Below, in pieces: positions 14,789 to 33,493 of a stretch of DNA of 64,000 bases. The position numbers and the translations under genes were made by a program. The first letter of the stretch is position 1. Each line of letters starts with the position of its first letter. This stretch comes from Thermoplasmata archaeon (GTDB taxonomy: Archaea > Thermoplasmatota > Thermoplasmata > Thermoplasmatales > Thermoplasmataceae): contig JAKAAY010000008.1 in assembly GCA_021802055.1 (NCBI GenBank), positions 1 to 64,000 of the forward strand, read 5' to 3'. The notes beneath the pieces were generated by a model. The model was not told where the DNA came from. It did no database searches and was given only the letters and a program-made list of their open reading frames with translations.

Positions 14789-17700
14789 TTACACCTCCTC
14801 CACGTCTGCATCCAGATACTCGATGCTTACAGAAAATGCAGTGATGACCTTGTATGAATGAATAGTAATGGTGGTGTTAGTGGCATCAACGGCAAACGGC
14901 TCATTGTGGAAGTGCCACGACATGGGTGTGTTGAGATTTGTGCTGTTGTACTGTTTGTAGAGCAGAGAGTTAATTTCCTGAGTATACTGGGAATGTATAG
15001 TGTATGTGAGACCAAAGAGATAAAGTCCGGTAATCATAGCCGGGTACCCGTTCCCATAAAGGTCGTAATAGGTGAATCTTTCCCCGAGATAGTACTGGTC
15101 CTTTACAACCTTACTGAGGTTCAGGACGATGGCACTGGTCCCTGTCCCGGTAGTTGATGAGTCTGGGCCAACAAGATTAATGAGGAATGCCGAGACAGAT
15201 ACATTACCGCTGTTGTTCGCAACTGATACTGGAATGTTGGCTGAGGAAACTACAAATTTGGATGACGAGTAGTTTGACAGAACCATGTTGTCCTGAACAT
15301 GGAAAGCAACAGACGGAACATAGGCGGTATTTCCATACGAAACGAACTGGCCGCTACCCTCCAGGCTATTCGATATGTACTTTCCAGTGTTATTGTTGAA
15401 GTATATGCTTCCGCCGTTGATCACCGTGACCTGGTTGGATACCTGGTCGGCAACATATATCAGACCGTCTTCAGGGTCGTATAATATGGATGAGGGCGAG
15501 AGACCGGTGGCTATGTTTGATATGGTATACCCCGTGAAGGTGTTGTTGAGCGTGACGTTATTAGAACCGTCGTTAGAAATGTACAGGTAACCATTGCCCT
15601 GATCGAAGGCGAGACCTGAAGGATTAGCGGTGGAGCCCACTGAAAATCCTCCTACATTGAGACTATTCAGCGAAATGGTAGAAACATTGTGGCTCCCGCT
15701 GTTCGCAATAAACAGTGTATTGGACGCTGGATCGTAAGATACAGCTTCCGGTTCATTGCCAACATGGAATGTCTGAACTACAACTCCGCGGGTGAGATTT
15801 ACCTCCATTACGCTGTTGCTCAAAAATCCTGAAACGAAGAGGGTGCCGCTAGGGGTGAACGCCCCGGAAATGGGACCGGTATTTGCAGGGAGGCTTATCA
15901 CATTGGTCGATAGAATTGTGCCGTTAATCTCAAAAATAGAACTTGTATTTGTGGCCAGGACATATACCGTTCCGTTGAGAGGATCCACAGCAGCGAAATT
16001 GGGTCTTGGAACTACGCCTCCGACCGATGGGATTGATACATTGGCAACAGATTTTCCCAAGGTCGGCGAGACCACCGTCACATTATTGGTTCCATTATTT
16101 GCTGCATAGAGAAATCCATTCAGACCATCATACGCAACAGACGTTACATTCCCACCGACCTGTAACTGGGATACCACGGACTGGGTGACAGGGTTTATCA
16201 TCGCTATGTTATCCGAAAATGCGTTTGCAACTGCAATCTCATTCAGGCTGCTGTCGTAGGCCTCAGACGATGGGGAATTGAATGGGCTGTTCCATATGTA
16301 TTCTGCGTTGATATGGCCAGTGAGGTTGGAAAGGATCGCAATGTTGTTACTCTGGTTATCTATCACAACGAGCGCTCCTCCACCCTTGAAAACAGACAAC
16401 GGGATGTACAGCATATCAACTGGTCCGCTCATAAATCCCGATTCCCCGCCCATGTTGTAGGAGCCAGAAGCATTAAAGGGAGAGGACGTCAGAGAGTTGG
16501 AGACGTTCGTTGAATTTAAGGCAACGATGTCCGAGTATAAGAATTGCCCGCTGGTGTTGTAAGACTGGTTATAGCCTCCAACATAGACATTGGGGTTTGA
16601 TTCGGTTAGAGGCCCAGGGCTGAGAGCGGCCGGGGTACCGGTGGGTATGGAAATGTTCACAATGAAGGGCGGCGCACCTGTTGAAGGGACAATGCAGGAA
16701 AACACAGATAAATTGCCTACCAGAGCGTGCTTATTCCCTTTATGACGGCCATGGTTAGGATGGTGGTTCGGTACGGGGTGGTTGTAAAGGAGGCCATAGG
16801 AGTTAGTCACATACACGTTGCCTGAAGCAGAAGTAAGGGCGAACGGGTGATTTACGTAAGTCTTACCGTTTCCTGCATTAAAGTAGACAGGAATGGCAGG
16901 TGAAGAAAGGTTAAGCAAGGTGAGATCACTCTGGTAATATTCTGTCATCCAAATGTAGGTATATCCTCCCGAAGACGTTTCCAACAGTGCAGAAGGGGGT
17001 GGATTAGCTGTGCCGGTATTATTTGCGGCCTTAGTGGTGTCACTGAATTGAAATGCAACATTAATGCTGTTATAATTTGAAAGGCTGATGCTTACGAGCT
17101 GTGGGAGATACTTCGTACCATGATTGTATACGTCAGCGACATAAAGTTCTCCGTTGACGCATATGATGTTACTGGGATAGAGCAAATTCCCATTATTTCC
17201 CTTCGAGTCAATAGTATATGCTATGGAATGTGTCTGCGGGTTGAATACGCTTATGGTGGAATATCCATCAGCAAGGCTCGCAGAATAGAATCTGAAGAAG
17301 TTGGTAATGTACAGGTAGCCCTGTGCATAGGTTATCCCGTACGGGTTCATGCCTACATAGTATTCTCCCAGGACCTTTCCTGTGGTCAGGTTAATCACAG
17401 AAACCGCATTTGCAGAATAATCTGTAACGTAGAGGTTCCCGTTGAGTGGGTCATACGCAGCGGAGGTGGGCACTCTGCCGTTGATAGTTGGAAAAGAGCC
17501 TACCACCTTATTGCTTATGGCCGTTGGAACGGTGTTCTCCAGAAGCTTGTAGTTTAATCCCACCTGGTAACTCAGAGTGGCGTTAAAGCCGGAATTCGAG
17601 AAGCAAACCTGGCTCTGAATGGAAGGCGTGATTATGGAACCCTGGATCCCCATTGGAATTCCCTGGGAAATGATCTGGCCAGAACTTATGTACGGATCCT

Positions 17701-17878
17701 CAAGCTGTGAAACGAGAGACGCAAGTGCTCGCTGTGAGTTTACCTGGAACTGCTGATCGTATGGGGTCTGGGTGGCAGGGATGTACCAGATTTCAAAGGT
17801 TGAAACTGCAGACACCATAATGGCGAACACGAGCATAGTACCTACAATTTCAGAAACGCTGGAGTCCCTTCGGGACAT
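14789..17878 (-). CDS. Surface protein: pilin-like N-terminus with two stretches of beta-propeller blades
   Basis: 1029 residues from the ATG at 17878; an ATG at 17884 is in frame, but the TATA box lies 27 nt from 17878. The head RRDSSVSEIVGTMLVFAIMV and helix ending WYIP, then IPMGIQG, match the two neighbouring proteins. Between about residues 125 and 830 are many NHL/YVTN-type blades (SAAYDPLNGNLYVTDYSANA, VSYDPASNTLFIANSGSHNV, ILYDPEDGLIYVADQVSNQV). A His/Pro-rich loop (HPVPNHHPNHGRHKGNKH) sits near residue 375. The C-terminal 200 residues resemble the neighbours. Likely exported and membrane-held, with the propellers outside; probable roles are adhesion, carbohydrate binding or envelope structure. 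It appears to be first in a two-gene transcript with the 12677 gene. Confidence 0.8.
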   Translation of the reverse strand: MSRRDSSVSEIVGTMLVFAIMVSAVSTFEIWYIPATQTPYDQQFQVNSQRALASLVSQLEDPYISSGQIISQGIPMGIQGSIITPSIQSQVCFSNSGFNATLSYQVGLNYKLLENTVPTAISNKVVGSFPTINGRVPTSAAYDPLNGNLYVTDYSANAVSVINLTTGKVLGEYYVGMNPYGITYAQGYLYITNFFRFYSASLADGYSTISVFNPQTHSIAYTIDSKGNNGNLLYPSNIICVNGELYVADVYNHGTKYLPQLVSISLSNYNSINVAFQFSDTTKAANNTGTANPPPSALLETSSGGYTYIWMTEYYQSDLTLLNLSSPAIPVYFNAGNGKTYVNHPFALTSASGNVYVTNSYGLLYNHPVPNHHPNHGRHKGNKHALVGNLSVFSCIVPSTGAPPFIVNISIPTGTPAALSPGPLTESNPNVYVGGYNQSYNTSGQFLYSDIVALNSTNVSNSLTSSPFNASGSYNMGGESGFMSGPVDMLYIPLSVFKGGGALVVIDNQSNNIAILSNLTGHINAEYIWNSPFNSPSSEAYDSSLNEIAVANAFSDNIAMINPVTQSVVSQLQVGGNVTSVAYDGLNGFLYAANNGTNNVTVVSPTLGKSVANVSIPSVGGVVPRPNFAAVDPLNGTVYVLATNTSSIFEINGTILSTNVISLPANTGPISGAFTPSGTLFVSGFLSNSVMEVNLTRGVVVQTFHVGNEPEAVSYDPASNTLFIANSGSHNVSTISLNSLNVGGFSVGSTANPSGLAFDQGNGYLYISNDGSNNVTLNNTFTGYTISNIATGLSPSSILYDPEDGLIYVADQVSNQVTVINGGSIYFNNNTGKYISNSLEGSGQFVSYGNTAYVPSVAFHVQDNMVLSNYSSSKFVVSSANIPVSVANNSGNVSVSAFLINLVGPDSSTTGTGTSAIVLNLSKVVKDQYYLGERFTYYDLYGNGYPAMITGLYLFGLTYTIHSQYTQEINSLLYKQYNSTNLNTPMSWHFHNEPFAVDATNTTITIHSYKVITAFSVSIEYLDADVEEV

Positions 17879-17898
17879 GATCATTGTAATGAAGATTT

Positions 17899-19038: not shown

Positions 19039-22000
19039 TCATTCCTCCTTCCTTCTTTTCCTCATTACATAGACACCGGCAGCTGCGACGCCTGCAATGG
19101 CTATGACTCCAATTATGAGATACAGCTCAGTTGGCGTAATGAGTGGGGCCTTCGACGGAGTTGGGGTAGGTGCAGGGGGAGGCGGTGGTGGGACGTTCTT
19201 GGCGAAGCTGACCGGTATTGTCACGCTGGTACCGTTGACCAGCAGCGTGCCAGTGCTCACAGATGTGATGTGGTAGCCCGAGGTGTTGTATATCACATAG
19301 GCATAGGTTCCGTTTGGCACGGTGAAATTATTCCATATCAGCGTTGAAGTCGAATTCTCTCCATTGAGGTTAACAGTCCAGCTTGTGTTTGTCGGGAGAC
19401 CAGTCTCCTTGAATGAGACAGTATATACCACTTCAGTAAAATTGAGCAGGACAACCTTGCCTGTCCCCTTCAGGGTGAAAGTTCCACCTGGTGGCGCTCT
19501 CCATGTCAGGTTAGTTGAGTATGGAGCATACAGATAGGTGCCATTGGGGAGATTAAAAGTAGTTGAGTTGACAGTGTAAGTGGCATTTGAAAAATTGTAT
19601 TGTCCCCGGAGTACCAGTCCCCATTTAAATCCCGTAGGAAGGCCGTTTTCCTTGAATGTTACCTTGTTCATAAAGGCGTAGAAAGATATATTAATTGTTT
19701 GGCTCGTACCGCTGACTTTTACCGAGCCGGAATAAGGCGTCGGAGTGAACTCGTCATATTTTGATATTGTGTATGAATAAGTGCCATTCTGGACCACTAT
19801 GGAAATTTGCGTAGAGTTGGTCGAATAAATCTTGCCAGCAAAGGTAAGTGACCACAGGGAGCCAACTGGCAGGCCGCTTTCCTCAAACAACACATGATAG
19901 ACAAAGTCCTCGAATACTATGCTGATCGTCATGTTGGAGCCGGAAATGTTGAAGAATCCTCCGGAGGGGGAAGGAAAATAGGTGAACACGTTAACCGCTG
20001 TTTCCAGATAGTAAGAGTAGGTTCCGTTGCCAAGCAGTATGGAAATGGACGCTGACGAGGAAGAGTAGATCTTGCCGCCAAGTATAAAGTTCCAGGTAGT
20101 TCCGGGCGGTAAACCGACGCTGTTTACTGTTAACACATGGCTGTAATTATAGAAGGTAATGTTCTCTGTAAAACTGGCTCCTTTCACAGTCACGAATCCG
20201 GATGATTCCCTGGCTGCAAATGGGAACGAGGTCTGTACCGTAAAGTAGTATGTCCCGTTTGGAAGGTTGAATGAAACTGCCTGGAAACCTCCGGAATTCT
20301 CACTGATTCCGTTCAATATCACCTGGAAGCTCTGTCCAAGGGGAAGACCGGTTTCGGAGAACGTAACCTGACGGAGTGTGCTGTGGAAAATCAAAGTCCT
20401 GCTAGCGGAAGAATCAAGCCAGACAAATCCCCCAGAATTATATGAAAGGTAAGTCGAGCCAGTCTTATAGGCAGACTGATAATAATATGTGCCGTTTGGG
20501 ACCTGGAACGTAATGGGTTCGAATGCATTGCCTGTTTCGCTCCTCGATACCGTACCGTTAGTCAGATTCACGCTCCACGCGGCTGAGGATGGCAATCCTG
20601 TTTCATAGAAAGTAAGGGTTTCAAGCGCTCTTACGAAGAGGATGGTGGACGAGGGAGATATGACACGACTGGAATTATTTACATATATCGACCCTTCAGG
20701 CGAAAATGGTCTGAAGCCTGCAGGCATACCCACCTGATAATAATATAGCCCGTTTGACAGATTTATAATGCTGCTGTCTTCGTACAGGCTCGTGTAAGCT
20801 TTAAACGTCCCGTTGGGATAATAAAGGCTCACGCTCCAGCTGGTGCCAGCGGGCAAGCCACTCTCATTAAACTGAATGCTATGAATTTCCTTGACAAACA
20901 CCACCGATATGTTTGTATAATTCACTCCATCCCAATAAACCGTCCCGGAGGAATTTACCACGGGAACATACCCGTCCGTGGAAAAAACGCTGAAGTACAG
21001 CTTGACTGTTACTCCCTTGGTCTGATTGTAATAGATCTCGGAAAAGGACGAACTGAGCAAAGCATGAACTCTGTATGAAGTGTTGTTTAAACCAACAGAC
21101 CACTGAGTGGATGAGGGAAGACCGGTTTCGTAGAAGACCAGGTAGGGAAAAACGTTCTTTCCTGAAGTCGTGTTATAGGAGACCTTAGGCTCATTGGTGT
21201 AATTAAAGGTCACGTGAAATGTTACCGAGCCCTCAGTGTCATTGTTCGAATAGTTGCCCGTGTAGACCGATCCGGTATTTGTGCCGTTCACTCTAAAATC
21301 CGCAACAGGCAGGACAGTGTAGTAAATCTTCTTCGCCACTGCAGGAATAGGCTCCGTAAAATAGATCTCGCTTGAGGAGCTATTTTCAACAACCCCTCCC
21401 ATCTTCACGGCCCATAGGGTGTTCTCAGAATTAAACGAAGGAAGACCGTTCTCGATGAACTCAACTTTAAAGTAATTCGGTACAAAATGGATCAGGACCC
21501 GCTGGGGCTCTCTGTTAAGTTTCAATGTGCCTGTTCCAGAGAAAGAATGAGTCGTGAAATTCTTGGCTGGAATGACAGAATAGGAATATAACCCGTTGGG
21601 CAGGCTAAATTCAATGGATGTTGAATTGGAGAATTGGGTCAGTATTTGGCCCGAGGAGGAGTTGATAAGTGTGACCCCCCACACCGGTGCGTTGCCGTCA
21701 CCAACCGGAAGCCCACTTTCGGTAAAATTCGCAACGTAAAGACCGCTGGCGAAATTCACCCTTTGGTAGTAGTTACCGCCGCTTATGGTGAAAGTTCCGG
21801 TTTCAGGATTGGGTATGTACATTCCAAGCCCGCTTATGGTGTAGGTGTATGTTCCATTGGGCAGGGTAACACCAATGGTAGAATTTATTGAACTTTGCCT
21901 GAAAACAGCATGGGTGGAGTTGACAATGGTAACGTTCCACAAACTGCCTGTACCAGACATAGGCAGTCCCGTTTCATTGAATACTGCCTCATATCGGCTG

Positions 22001-22662
22001 CTTGCAAATGAAAGAGACACCAGAACATTGGCATTGGCAACCGATATGGTTCCTGTCTTGCTCAAAATATAGTAACCGGAAGGAGGGAAAACCGCATAAG
22101 TATAGCTTCCATTCGGGACTGTGAACGAAATGTTCCGTGCCGCAGCCGACTGGGATATTCCGTCAAATGTCACAGACCACAGAGGTATGGTTGTTTCCCC
22201 CGGCACACTTTGAGTTCCCAGTCCTGTTTCATTGAATGTTACGGTGAAAAGCGTGCTGCTGAATACAACGCTTACAAGCACATTCGCCCCCGAAACATTG
22301 ACGCTTCCGGAACCAGGAGTGGCCTGGAAGCCTTGGGATGTGGTGACGTTATAATGGTATGTCCCCTGTGAGACATTGAAGGTAATCTCATCTGTCGATG
22401 ACTTTGAGATTTTTCCGCTGAGATTAACGGTCCATAGCTGACCTGTCGGAGAAGAAGGCAGCCCGCTTTCCCTGAATACCACCTGGTAAATTGAGGTGGA
22501 GTAGGGGGCGTTATCCGTGCCCTGAGTCCCTGCAGGCTTCCCTGTATGAGAGGTTCCTGCGGAAAGGGGGAAAGCAACCTGCAAAATCATCAACAGTATG
22601 ACAGCGCAAACACTGGTTTTCAGTATGATACGAGACTTGTCAGTCAGAAGCGAGTGAACCAT
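19039..22662 (-). CDS. Giant surface protein of 13 'ETGLP' modules with C-terminal membrane anchor
   Basis: 1207 residues from the ATG at 22662, chosen because a TATA box (22691-22698) lies about 32 nt upstream; the frame extends to 22770. An N-terminal hydrophobic export signal (CAVILLMILQVAFPLSAG, residues 16-33) is followed by 13 modules of about 80-95 residues. Each opens with F-x-E-[TSN]-GLP-x(2-8)-W and closes with a strand like LPNGTYxYxV. Then come a Pro-rich spacer (PPPPPAPTPTPSKAP), one membrane helix (LIIGVIAIAGVAAAGVYV) and a basic tail RKRRKEE. The topology is outside-facing repeats held by a C-terminal helix. Many N-x-S/T sites. Similar repeats are known from exported Thermoplasmatales proteins; no enzyme domain is seen. 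Adhesion or S-layer-like structure is inferred. Confidence 0.82.
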   Translation of the reverse strand: MVHSLLTDKSRIILKTSVCAVILLMILQVAFPLSAGTSHTGKPAGTQGTDNAPYSTSIYQVVFRESGLPSSPTGQLWTVNLSGKISKSSTDEITFNVSQGTYHYNVTTSQGFQATPGSGSVNVSGANVLVSVVFSSTLFTVTFNETGLGTQSVPGETTIPLWSVTFDGISQSAAARNISFTVPNGSYTYAVFPPSGYYILSKTGTISVANANVLVSLSFASSRYEAVFNETGLPMSGTGSLWNVTIVNSTHAVFRQSSINSTIGVTLPNGTYTYTISGLGMYIPNPETGTFTISGGNYYQRVNFASGLYVANFTESGLPVGDGNAPVWGVTLINSSSGQILTQFSNSTSIEFSLPNGLYSYSVIPAKNFTTHSFSGTGTLKLNREPQRVLIHFVPNYFKVEFIENGLPSFNSENTLWAVKMGGVVENSSSSEIYFTEPIPAVAKKIYYTVLPVADFRVNGTNTGSVYTGNYSNNDTEGSVTFHVTFNYTNEPKVSYNTTSGKNVFPYLVFYETGLPSSTQWSVGLNNTSYRVHALLSSSFSEIYYNQTKGVTVKLYFSVFSTDGYVPVVNSSGTVYWDGVNYTNISVVFVKEIHSIQFNESGLPAGTSWSVSLYYPNGTFKAYTSLYEDSSIINLSNGLYYYQVGMPAGFRPFSPEGSIYVNNSSRVISPSSTILFVRALETLTFYETGLPSSAAWSVNLTNGTVSRSETGNAFEPITFQVPNGTYYYQSAYKTGSTYLSYNSGGFVWLDSSASRTLIFHSTLRQVTFSETGLPLGQSFQVILNGISENSGGFQAVSFNLPNGTYYFTVQTSFPFAARESSGFVTVKGASFTENITFYNYSHVLTVNSVGLPPGTTWNFILGGKIYSSSSASISILLGNGTYSYYLETAVNVFTYFPSPSGGFFNISGSNMTISIVFEDFVYHVLFEESGLPVGSLWSLTFAGKIYSTNSTQISIVVQNGTYSYTISKYDEFTPTPYSGSVKVSGTSQTINISFYAFMNKVTFKENGLPTGFKWGLVLRGQYNFSNATYTVNSTTFNLPNGTYLYAPYSTNLTWRAPPGGTFTLKGTGKVVLLNFTEVVYTVSFKETGLPTNTSWTVNLNGENSTSTLIWNNFTVPNGTYAYVIYNTSGYHITSVSTGTLLVNGTSVTIPVSFAKNVPPPPPPAPTPTPSKAPLITPTELYLIIGVIAIAGVAAAGVYVMRKRRKEE

Positions 22663-22690
22663 AAACTTGTTCCAATGGTTAGCGGTATTT

Positions 22691-22698
22691 GTATAAAG
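22691..22698 (-). promoter_or_regulatory. TATA box for the giant repeat surface protein
   Basis: Minus-strand CTTTATAC, centred about 32 nt upstream of the ATG at 22662. It lies inside the longest open frame, so it argues against starts further upstream. Confidence 0.55.
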
Positions 22699-22798
22699 TA
22701 TTTTTCCGATCAAGAATGGCATGGTCACTGACGTGCAACAAACTGGTACGGTCAAGCGGGTTGTATCCATGATCAGGGGATAAGATGGATGACAACAG

Positions 22799-31835: not shown

Positions 31836-32633
31836 CTAAACCAGTCTTTCTCTGATTATTCCAGCCACTTCGGAAAGTTTTATGCTGAACATCCTCAGGT
31901 CGCGTACGACCTTCTCGTTTATCCTGTCCAGAAGATCCATGGAATTTTCCGGAGTCAACTCAACCGCCGAAGGTCCCAGTGTATCGTTGTCATAGACCTT
32001 CAATCCCACGTTATTCTTGACAAGCTCGAGAATGCCTCTCTGTGCAATCTGTCTGCGGCCCTTCTCGATCCTTGAAGGCTTTATCACCAGATTCATGTGG
32101 GCAATCTTACGGGAATTCAACAGGGAAGAGAATGCAATATGCATGGGCTGGGCGAAGCTCCCCCCGAAGCCACTCACGAGTATGAACACCGAAGACCTTG
32201 GAATAGTGTCCAGGAGCAGGCTCGCAGCAAGTTCTGGAGATGAGTAGAACTGCTCTGAGGGAATGGATATGTGCCTGAGTGACTGCGAGACTTCCTGAAC
32301 GAGACCGTTTGAGTGCTCGATGACCGCCTCATGGTGGTGTCTGTCTTCCAGATCGACCTTAAAGTAAGACATCTTTGTCTTTGTAACGAATTCCTTCGCC
32401 CTTGTAATCATCCCTTTAGGCTTTGTCCTTTCTCCAAGGGTGACTGAGTGAAGGTTTGCCATGGCGAGTTCGTTGGGCATTATGTATCCCAGTACCCTCC
32501 TTCCGCAGTCTCCGAAAGAAATGACGGTTACGTCAGCCCTTTCTTCGTAGTAGTCCTTCAGTATTTCTGCCAAGTTCATTTTCACCTCATATTCCGACAC
32601 CAGTTCGTCGAATTTTTCCACCACTTTTTTCAC
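31836..32633 (-). CDS. Divergent FtsZ/tubulin-superfamily-like protein lacking the C-terminal domain
   Basis: 265 residues from a GTG at 32633 that overlaps the stop of the RHH gene (GTGA). Aligning by eye with FtsZ of this window: VTVISFGDCGRRVL (35-48) stands where FtsZ has IKVFGVGGGGSNTV; SVFILVSGFGGSFAQPM (148-164) where FtsZ has the tubulin signature GGGTGTG; IKPSRIEKGRRQIAQRG (184-200) against MPFEMEGKNKR; VYDNDTL (213-219) against IPNDKL; then a long helix like H7, after which the protein ends. So a GTPase-like half is suggested, but the glycine loops are eroded and the T7 catalytic loop with the polymerisation domain is missing. It probably does not hydrolyse GTP normally. Inferred: a partner or regulator of FtsZ, or a nucleotide sensor. 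The assignment is by eye and needs a profile or structure search. Confidence 0.6.
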   Translation of the reverse strand: MKKVVEKFDELVSEYEVKMNLAEILKDYYEERADVTVISFGDCGRRVLGYIMPNELAMANLHSVTLGERTKPKGMITRAKEFVTKTKMSYFKVDLEDRHHHEAVIEHSNGLVQEVSQSLRHISIPSEQFYSSPELAASLLLDTIPRSSVFILVSGFGGSFAQPMHIAFSSLLNSRKIAHMNLVIKPSRIEKGRRQIAQRGILELVKNNVGLKVYDNDTLGPSAVELTPENSMDLLDRINEKVVRDLRMFSIKLSEVAGIIRERLV

Positions 32634-33055: not shown

Positions 33056-33080
33056 CTGAGTTATGATTGGCTTAGTAGTA

Positions 33081-33088
33081 TTTAAATA
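33081..33088 (-). promoter_or_regulatory. TATA box of the RHH/FtsZ-like operon
   Basis: Minus-strand TATTTAAA in the context AATATTTAAATAC, centred about 29 nt upstream of the ATG at 33055; used to choose that start. Confidence 0.55.
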
Positions 33089-33139
33089 TTGTGATTTTTG
33101 TCTGTCACATGTAAGACGCCAGTAAATGTTGTATGGCAA

Positions 33140-33493
33140 AATATCACTACGACTATGTTATGAATTTACAGAAATTTCCTAACTCTGTTGTCAATACAAT
33201 CTATTTACAAGTTAAACAATGTATATCCGTGTGACCTACATGCATATAAAAATAATCAATATACAATATTATAATGTACCTCCTTTCATGGTTGTTAACG
33301 AGCAGATTTAATTCCATGAAACAGCGCAATCTTTGGTATTAACTGATGTTTTATGTTATTGTGTGCGCGTCGGACTTATGGAAAAGATAAGATAATAAGA
33401 GTAACGTTTGGATTGATAACTTGTGAACCCGAACTTCAATTTCGGTTGAGCTCTTCCCAGAAAGCGTTATTACTTCTGGTTAAATACCTGAAT
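33140..33493. other. AT-rich divergent intergenic region between the RHH and aIF2-beta genes
   Basis: No gene seen. Unusually AT-rich for this window (for example 33240-33280) with several ATATAA/ATATTA tracts, and an 8-bp inverted repeat at 33284-33321. It must hold the promoter for the aIF2-beta operon. It could also carry operators for the RHH protein. Confidence 0.5.
33284..33321. repeat. Inverted repeat TTTCATGG / CCATGAAA
   Basis: TTTCATGG at 33284-33291 and its exact complement CCATGAAA at 33314-33321, 22 bases apart. The two-arm layout could be an operator for a dimeric protein such as the adjacent RHH regulator; this is inference. Confidence 0.35.

Follow-up and report, generated by a model that had tools for sequence, protein, structure and literature searches.

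A GTPase-half relative of FtsZ encoded with a CdrS-like ribbon-helix-helix regulator in Thermoplasmata

The stretch of Thermoplasmata archaeon DNA analyzed here (64,000 nucleotides of contig JAKAAY010000008.1; hereafter, the window) encodes a short protein related to the GTPase half of FtsZ, referred to as pseudo-FtsZ. Catalytic and phosphate-binding motifs of FtsZ have been lost from this protein, as have the T7 loop and the C-terminal domain; its gene evolves under purifying selection, is linked in an operon to a gene for a ribbon-helix-helix (RHH) regulator, and has relatives throughout the class. The explanation we favor, tentatively and at a likelihood just short of even, is that pseudo-FtsZ is a GTPase-dead FtsZ paralog whose CdrS-like operon is autoregulated and which regulates FtsZ by docking on it or capping its filaments. 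The features on which this reading is built are collected in Table 1.

Table 1. Features of the window discussed in the text; positions are nucleotides of the window, and residues are those of pseudo-FtsZ.
Feature	Positions	Strand	Remarks
Canonical ftsZ, 363 aa, PF00091 and PF12327	10100–11191	−	No RHH gene upstream
Pseudo-FtsZ, FtsZ-derived GTPase-half protein, 265 aa	31836–32633	−	GTG start overlaps RHH stop (GTGA)
H7-like C-terminal helix, residues 229–264	31842–31949	−	N239 in 34/36 orthologs
T6-like, residues 213–219 VYDNDTL	31977–31997	−	Ortholog alignment
T5-like strand/loop, residues 184–194 IKPSRIEKGRR	32052–32084	−	P186 invariant
Remodeled T4, residues 154–165 SGFGGSFAQPMH	32139–32174	−	Ortholog alignment
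T1-like loop, residues 40–46 FGDCGRR	32496–32516	−	Alignment of 36 orthologs
CdrS/aCcr1-like RHH regulator, 141 aa	32630–33055	−	Start ATG 33055; co-directional upstream partner
TATA box TTTAAATA of the RHH–pseudo-FtsZ operon	33079–33086	−	About 24 nt before ATG 33055
Operator-like palindrome TGTCAATACA/TGTATTGACA	33189–33198		Pattern match

Taken as a single sequence, pseudo-FtsZ gives weak evidence of homology that nevertheless spans the domain: the Pfam model PF00091 aligns with residues 36–219 over model positions 3–185 of 190 at an E-value of 0.0039, short of the curated Pfam cut-off. Four motifs that a preliminary description had recognized by eye as T1, T4, T5, and T6 of FtsZ fall in the same places in this alignment. 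Orthologs are present in most Thermoplasmataceae genomes searched, and 10 of 17 match PF00091 individually (best E-value, 1.2e-8). When a profile of this 17-member family was compared with 177,635 distinct PDB sequences, all 48 matches at E ≤ 10 were FtsZ, the best having an E-value of 4.9e-5, and no unrelated Rossmann family was matched with confidence. Alignment of the family profile with 17 canonical Thermoplasmata FtsZ sequences using hhalign gave an E-value of 2e-6 (0.66 for the reversed control), and values of 8e-11 to 2e-10 were obtained with three sets of the intermediate mini-FtsZ sequences described later. Judged by these profiles, homology to the GTPase half of FtsZ is decisive at the family level. 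The proposal that the gene encodes a paralog of this half apart from ftsZ is thus borne out by profile, synteny, and intermediate-sequence evidence, which agree.

AlphaFold models are of low confidence, and the proposed fold rests on the profiles instead. A first model, based on an alignment of the window protein and one ortholog (L001) only, had a mean pLDDT near 50 and matched generic Rossmann folds in Foldseek, which makes it uninformative. A second model, for which the FtsZ of the window was added to the alignment, matched FtsZ in Foldseek, still with a pLDDT near 50, and is given little weight as its alignment was biased.

The open frame, checked by translation, begins with GTG. Among 36 orthologs, the near-invariant residues are G41, G44, P53, S154, F156, G157, F160, Q162, H165, P186, R194, A197, D215, N216, and N239. 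The T1-like loop has kept G41 (36/36) and G44 (33/36) and lacks the Asn of FtsZ T1. In T4, the phosphate-binding GTGTG has been replaced, GGGTGTG having become GFGGxFxQxxH, and the new near-invariant residues F160 (32/36), Q162 (34/36), and H165 (35/36) occupy the former positions of phosphate-binding residues. The FtsZ signature GGGTG[ST]G was not found; the window protein reads GFGGSFAQ, and the family, SGFGGxFxQxxH. The T5/T6 region is the best-kept part, and N216 of the T6-like segment is aligned to N192 of Methanocaldococcus jannaschii FtsZ, a guanine-contact residue. As the preliminary description had stated, the T7 loop and the FtsZ C-terminal domain are lost: the chain stops after the H7-like helix, and PF12327 is absent. 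Relative to canonical FtsZ, the Thermoplasmataceae form therefore misses the T1 Asn, T2, T3, the T4 GTGTG, T7, and the C-terminal domain.

Two earlier statements need qualification in the light of this alignment. The glycine signature was said to be lost, which holds for the phosphate-binding GTGTG, but two T4 glycines remain. The protein was also called eroded, a term that does not fit T4, which has been rebuilt to a new near-invariant sequence under purifying selection. The dN/dS ratio between the window gene and its nearest relative is 0.04, and other close pairs gave 0.02–0.06; pseudo-FtsZ is a remodeled protein under strong purifying selection, not a decaying gene. The gene had no match in a PADLOC search for defense systems, and a scan of viral contigs found no relative of pseudo-FtsZ.

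The fact that most constrains the function of pseudo-FtsZ is its operon with the RHH gene, which overlaps it by 4 nt and had gone unremarked in the preliminary description. The mechanical RHH reading frame reaches a TTG at 33139, and the natural start is probably the ATG listed in Table 1. Against the NCBIfam model for CdrS (NF058555), the RHH protein scores 26.3 bits (E = 5.3e-6), with a curated cut-off of 100 bits, and against aCcr1 it gives an E-value of 4e-4, also under the curated cut-off. By these scores it is a relative of CdrS and not a member of NF058555; its gene has the CdrS-type placement directly upstream of an FtsZ-family gene. The pair is flanked on one side by pyrB–pyrI, which are convergent with it, and on the other by a divergent aIF2-beta-like gene (eIF-5_eIF-2B domain). 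Canonical ftsZ is present twice in this genome of 1.48 Mb and 42 contigs, as the complete gene in the window, already noted before, and as a second gene, not previously remarked on, on another contig, so that pseudo-FtsZ is the third gene of the FtsZ superfamily. Near the ftsZ of the window lie two large open reading frames on the minus strand, one of 1031 aa (14789–17884) with a weak match to a beta-propeller model (TIGR03866) and one of 1243 aa (19039–22770) with no NCBIfam match.

The transcript of the operon is probably leaderless. The palindrome at 33189–33198 is the only strict operator match near the promoter in the window genome and lies at a greater distance from the TATA box than its counterparts in most relatives, a point against the favored explanation. 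An operator at the operon promoter is supported by statistics: of 41 regions upstream of the operon, 29 contain the pattern TGT[AC]NN[GT]ACA, compared with 1.0 expected from dinucleotide shuffles; there are mostly one or two matches per promoter, often some 20 nt ahead of the TATA box, and genera that lack FtsZ have them as well. Combined with one fixed TATA spacing, the operator has a single genome match in each of G013, G017, and G008, in every case the operon promoter, and the reversed-pattern control gave 0–2 matches per strand and genome; other genomes showed off-target matches or none, and genome-wide specificity is therefore no more than suggestive. Upstream of canonical ftsZ, the operator was found in 1 of 23 cases, at −248, and control of ftsZ by the same operator was not found. 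Taken together, the pattern points to an RHH protein that regulates its own operon. In genus g2 (upstream of L006, L044, L047, and L051), direct repeats of TGTATGGCA about 11 nt apart make up the operator; these repeats occur in 11 copies in 5 regions (0.1 expected), which is consistent with stacked RHH dimers.

A survey of the class Thermoplasmata, with inspection of the loci, showed that conserved relatives run across the class, in line with the ortholog check proposed earlier. Outside Thermoplasmataceae, these are short FtsZ proteins of about 250–320 aa that consist of the GTPase domain only. They match PF00091 above the cut-off (E = 1.6e-14 to 2.9e-41) and lack PF12327, and many retain T1 and GGGTG[ST]G. 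By these motifs, the partner in most families appears to be a GTPase-domain-only mini-FtsZ with intact GTP motifs, which have been eroded in Thermoplasmataceae. An RHH gene lies directly upstream in all 63 short FtsZ with upstream sequence, namely 38/38 in Thermoplasmataceae and 25/25 elsewhere (22 by script and three by a six-frame check), as opposed to none of 24 canonical ftsZ genes for which upstream reading frames were examined. In the phylogenetic tree, a branch with an SH-aLRT of 99 separates all mini and eroded forms from canonical FtsZ, from M. jannaschii FtsZ1, and from five of the six RHH-linked copies that had initially been classed as full-length. The remaining copy, L103, has 256 aa and groups with the minis. 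Because the branches are long, the order inside the mini-FtsZ group is uncertain. Pseudo-FtsZ belongs to an RHH-linked mini-FtsZ group, defined in the present analysis by a GTPase half only, an RHH gene immediately upstream, and separation from canonical FtsZ.

The fate of the gene pair was compared with the presence of FtsZ. No canonical FtsZ is encoded in any of the 15 genomes of genera g10, g18, and g19, and the remaining 16 Thermoplasmataceae genera all have one; none was found in G092, an incomplete genome. Picrophilus, Acidiplasma, and Ferroplasma have been reported to lack FtsZ, SepF, and PRC barrel proteins (PMC10936438), and we infer that g10, g18, and g19 are these genera. The RHH gene was found in all 19 genera, FtsZ-less ones included. 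In g10, g18, and g19, and only there, the slot after it holds a coupled open reading frame of 157–179 aa without an FtsZ match. In g3 and g13, where FtsZ is present, the partner has diverged further, yet its relationship to the family is still clear (hhalign, 8e-10 and 4e-6). Slots in the FtsZ-less genera and g13 have higher dN/dS values, of about 0.09–0.21. A tree of archaeosine synthase, used as a marker, groups the three FtsZ-less genera in a single clade (100/97), so the co-loss of FtsZ and its FtsZ-like partner counts as a single event. The loss of FtsZ-like partner sequence only in the clade that lost FtsZ is the best indirect support for the idea that pseudo-FtsZ binds FtsZ; the persistence of the slot in that clade implies that part of its function is independent of FtsZ.

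The small partners in the FtsZ-less genera (L116, L119, L121, L122, and L203–L212) overlap the RHH stop, are conserved in the clade, belong to no recognized family, and have the same operator. They are candidate division-related genes in lineages without FtsZ. Their descent from FtsZ was considered and is not supported, the hhalign P-value of 0.0027 with 4 sequences having become 0.035 with 11, and what they share with pseudo-FtsZ is the gene slot only.

In the FtsZ filament, the N-terminal half of each subunit provides one face of the interface, and T7 in the C-terminal half provides the other. In the favored explanation, pseudo-FtsZ would be the Thermoplasmataceae form of the class-wide mini-FtsZ, an N-terminal GTPase domain followed by an H7-like helix, co-transcribed and translationally coupled with the CdrS-like RHH regulator. 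The latter would act on a TGTnnnnACA operator shortly before the TATA box and so control the operon, and this autoregulation would hold the level of pseudo-FtsZ. The FtsZ-like half would dock on FtsZ via its inherited N-domain surface. As only the first filament face is present, a filament end or a free subunit could be occupied and growth blocked; with no T7 or C-terminal half, the polymer would not be passed on, and filaments would be capped or titrated. Binding to FtsZ without GTP hydrolysis, already suggested in the preliminary description, is plausible. Alternatively, within the same explanation, pseudo-FtsZ may report on FtsZ.

Next in likelihood, and on balance doubtful, is that pseudo-FtsZ serves as a dedicated partner of the RHH protein (corepressor, co-activator, or antagonist), its FtsZ fold being a mere scaffold, in an autoregulatory switch that makes no direct contact with FtsZ. 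This would fit the invariant adjacency and 4-nt overlaps of the genes, the survival of the RHH gene and a coupled partner without FtsZ, and the position of the operator at the operon's own promoter and not at ftsZ. It fits poorly, however, with the vanishing of FtsZ-like sequence exactly in the FtsZ-less clade, and the full GTP-binding loops of the ancestral mini-FtsZ suggest that its first role was linked to FtsZ or GTP. Regulation of FtsZ is considered the most likely role. The two roles may also be joined in one switch. In this combined version, which we think possible but unlikely, pseudo-FtsZ would be the sensor half of a transcription switch made of two proteins: in its free state it would bind the RHH protein and modulate it, to be released when it docks on FtsZ filaments or on surplus FtsZ, so that the state of the division ring is read directly into transcription; the GTP-competent mini-FtsZ of the class would then be the ancestral, nucleotide-gated version.

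A nucleotide sensor that binds a guanine nucleotide or related ligand via the retained T5/T6/H7 side would account for the conservation of G41, G44, P186, D215, N216, and N239, which include the aligned guanine-contact Asn of T6. We consider this role, which the preliminary description also raised, decidedly less likely, as the phosphate loops have been lost: neither the T1 Asn nor T2, T3, or the GTGTG of T4 is present, and bulky F160 and Q162 stand in the phosphate loop. ParMRC and TubZRC systems combine a small DNA-binding protein and a protein of a cytomotive superfamily in one operon, and an RHH gene with a tubulin-superfamily gene behind an upstream palindrome resembles such a partition module, in which the RHH protein would be the adaptor for DNA segregation. 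Unlike those systems, however, the pair is chromosomal and class-wide, one or two operator matches per promoter are usual, with no iteron array among the matches to this pattern, and the motor motifs are lost, so that the Thermoplasmataceae protein would be unable to form a GTP-driven filament; a partition role is thus improbable. A decaying pseudogene, a chance reading frame, or an unrelated Rossmann protein, which the low identity between genera (22–38%) and the weak single-sequence Pfam score might suggest, can be set aside because of the low dN/dS values, the retention of the gene in all genera that have FtsZ, and the FtsZ-specific profile evidence.

Pseudo-FtsZ resembles FtsZ (PF00091 and PF12327; archaeal FtsZ1/FtsZ2) in its homologous GTPase half, whose elements, T1 through the H7-like helix, have the same order and spacing; it differs in lacking the phosphate loops, T7, and the C-terminal domain, in its place across the supported branch, and in its pairing with an RHH gene. 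In the haloarchaeal cdrS-(cdrL)-ftsZ2 operon (PMC7439475, PMC8406309), an RHH gene immediately precedes the FtsZ-family gene to which it is coupled, the same layout as in the Thermoplasmata pair. The Thermoplasmata partner, however, is GTPase-half or GTPase-dead and not a full FtsZ2, and the RHH protein has about 140 aa, compared with the short haloarchaeal CdrS. Moreover, Haloferax volcanii CdrS binds upstream of ftsZ1 (PMC7439475, PMC8406309), whereas the Thermoplasmata operator lies at the promoter of the operon itself and was not seen at canonical ftsZ. The short partners would have escaped the 2020 synteny survey, which demanded an FtsZ2 similarity of >200 bits. FtsZl-1 and FtsZl-2 are divergent members of the FtsZ/tubulin superfamily, some of them archaeal (Makarova and Koonin 2010, PMC2875224); their description does not mention Thermoplasma. 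FtsZl-1 proteins carry a coiled coil plus a C-terminal domain of alpha-helices, and their genes neighbor VWA, GTPase, and OmpA genes (PMC2875224), whereas pseudo-FtsZ, at 265 aa, ends after the H7-like helix and has other neighbors, which sets it apart from FtsZl-1. A published description of an RHH-linked mini- or pseudo-FtsZ family was not found in the open-license literature. The present analysis defines an operon, found across the class, in which an RHH regulator is paired with a GTPase-half FtsZ.

How Thermoplasmata divide is poorly understood: FtsZ is present in some genera, and Picrophilus lacks every known division gene (PMC10936438). The class-wide gene pair points to an unrecognized regulator of archaeal cell division, with partners forming a graded series from GTP-competent to GTPase-dead to unrecognizable that ends in the lineage that lost FtsZ. 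If the favored explanation is true, pseudo-FtsZ would be a natural pseudo-tubulin regulator, and the pair would offer a concrete entry to the control of the archaeal division ring. Ortholog pairs are found in the single-contig genomes G080 and G083 (L061, L063), whose genes allow tests with purified proteins.

A second type of pair, consisting of an RHH gene followed by a near full-length FtsZ of about 321–360 aa, was seen at L137 (G032), L025 and L027 (f4), L082 (f11), and L110 (f20), and is a possible counterpart of cdrS-ftsZ2. G032 carries both types, the RHH–near-full-length FtsZ pair and the RHH–mini-FtsZ pair. This genome and G031, G026, G163, G126, and G095 have 6–7 matches each to the FtsZ GTPase family, mostly in separate genes, an unusual expansion.
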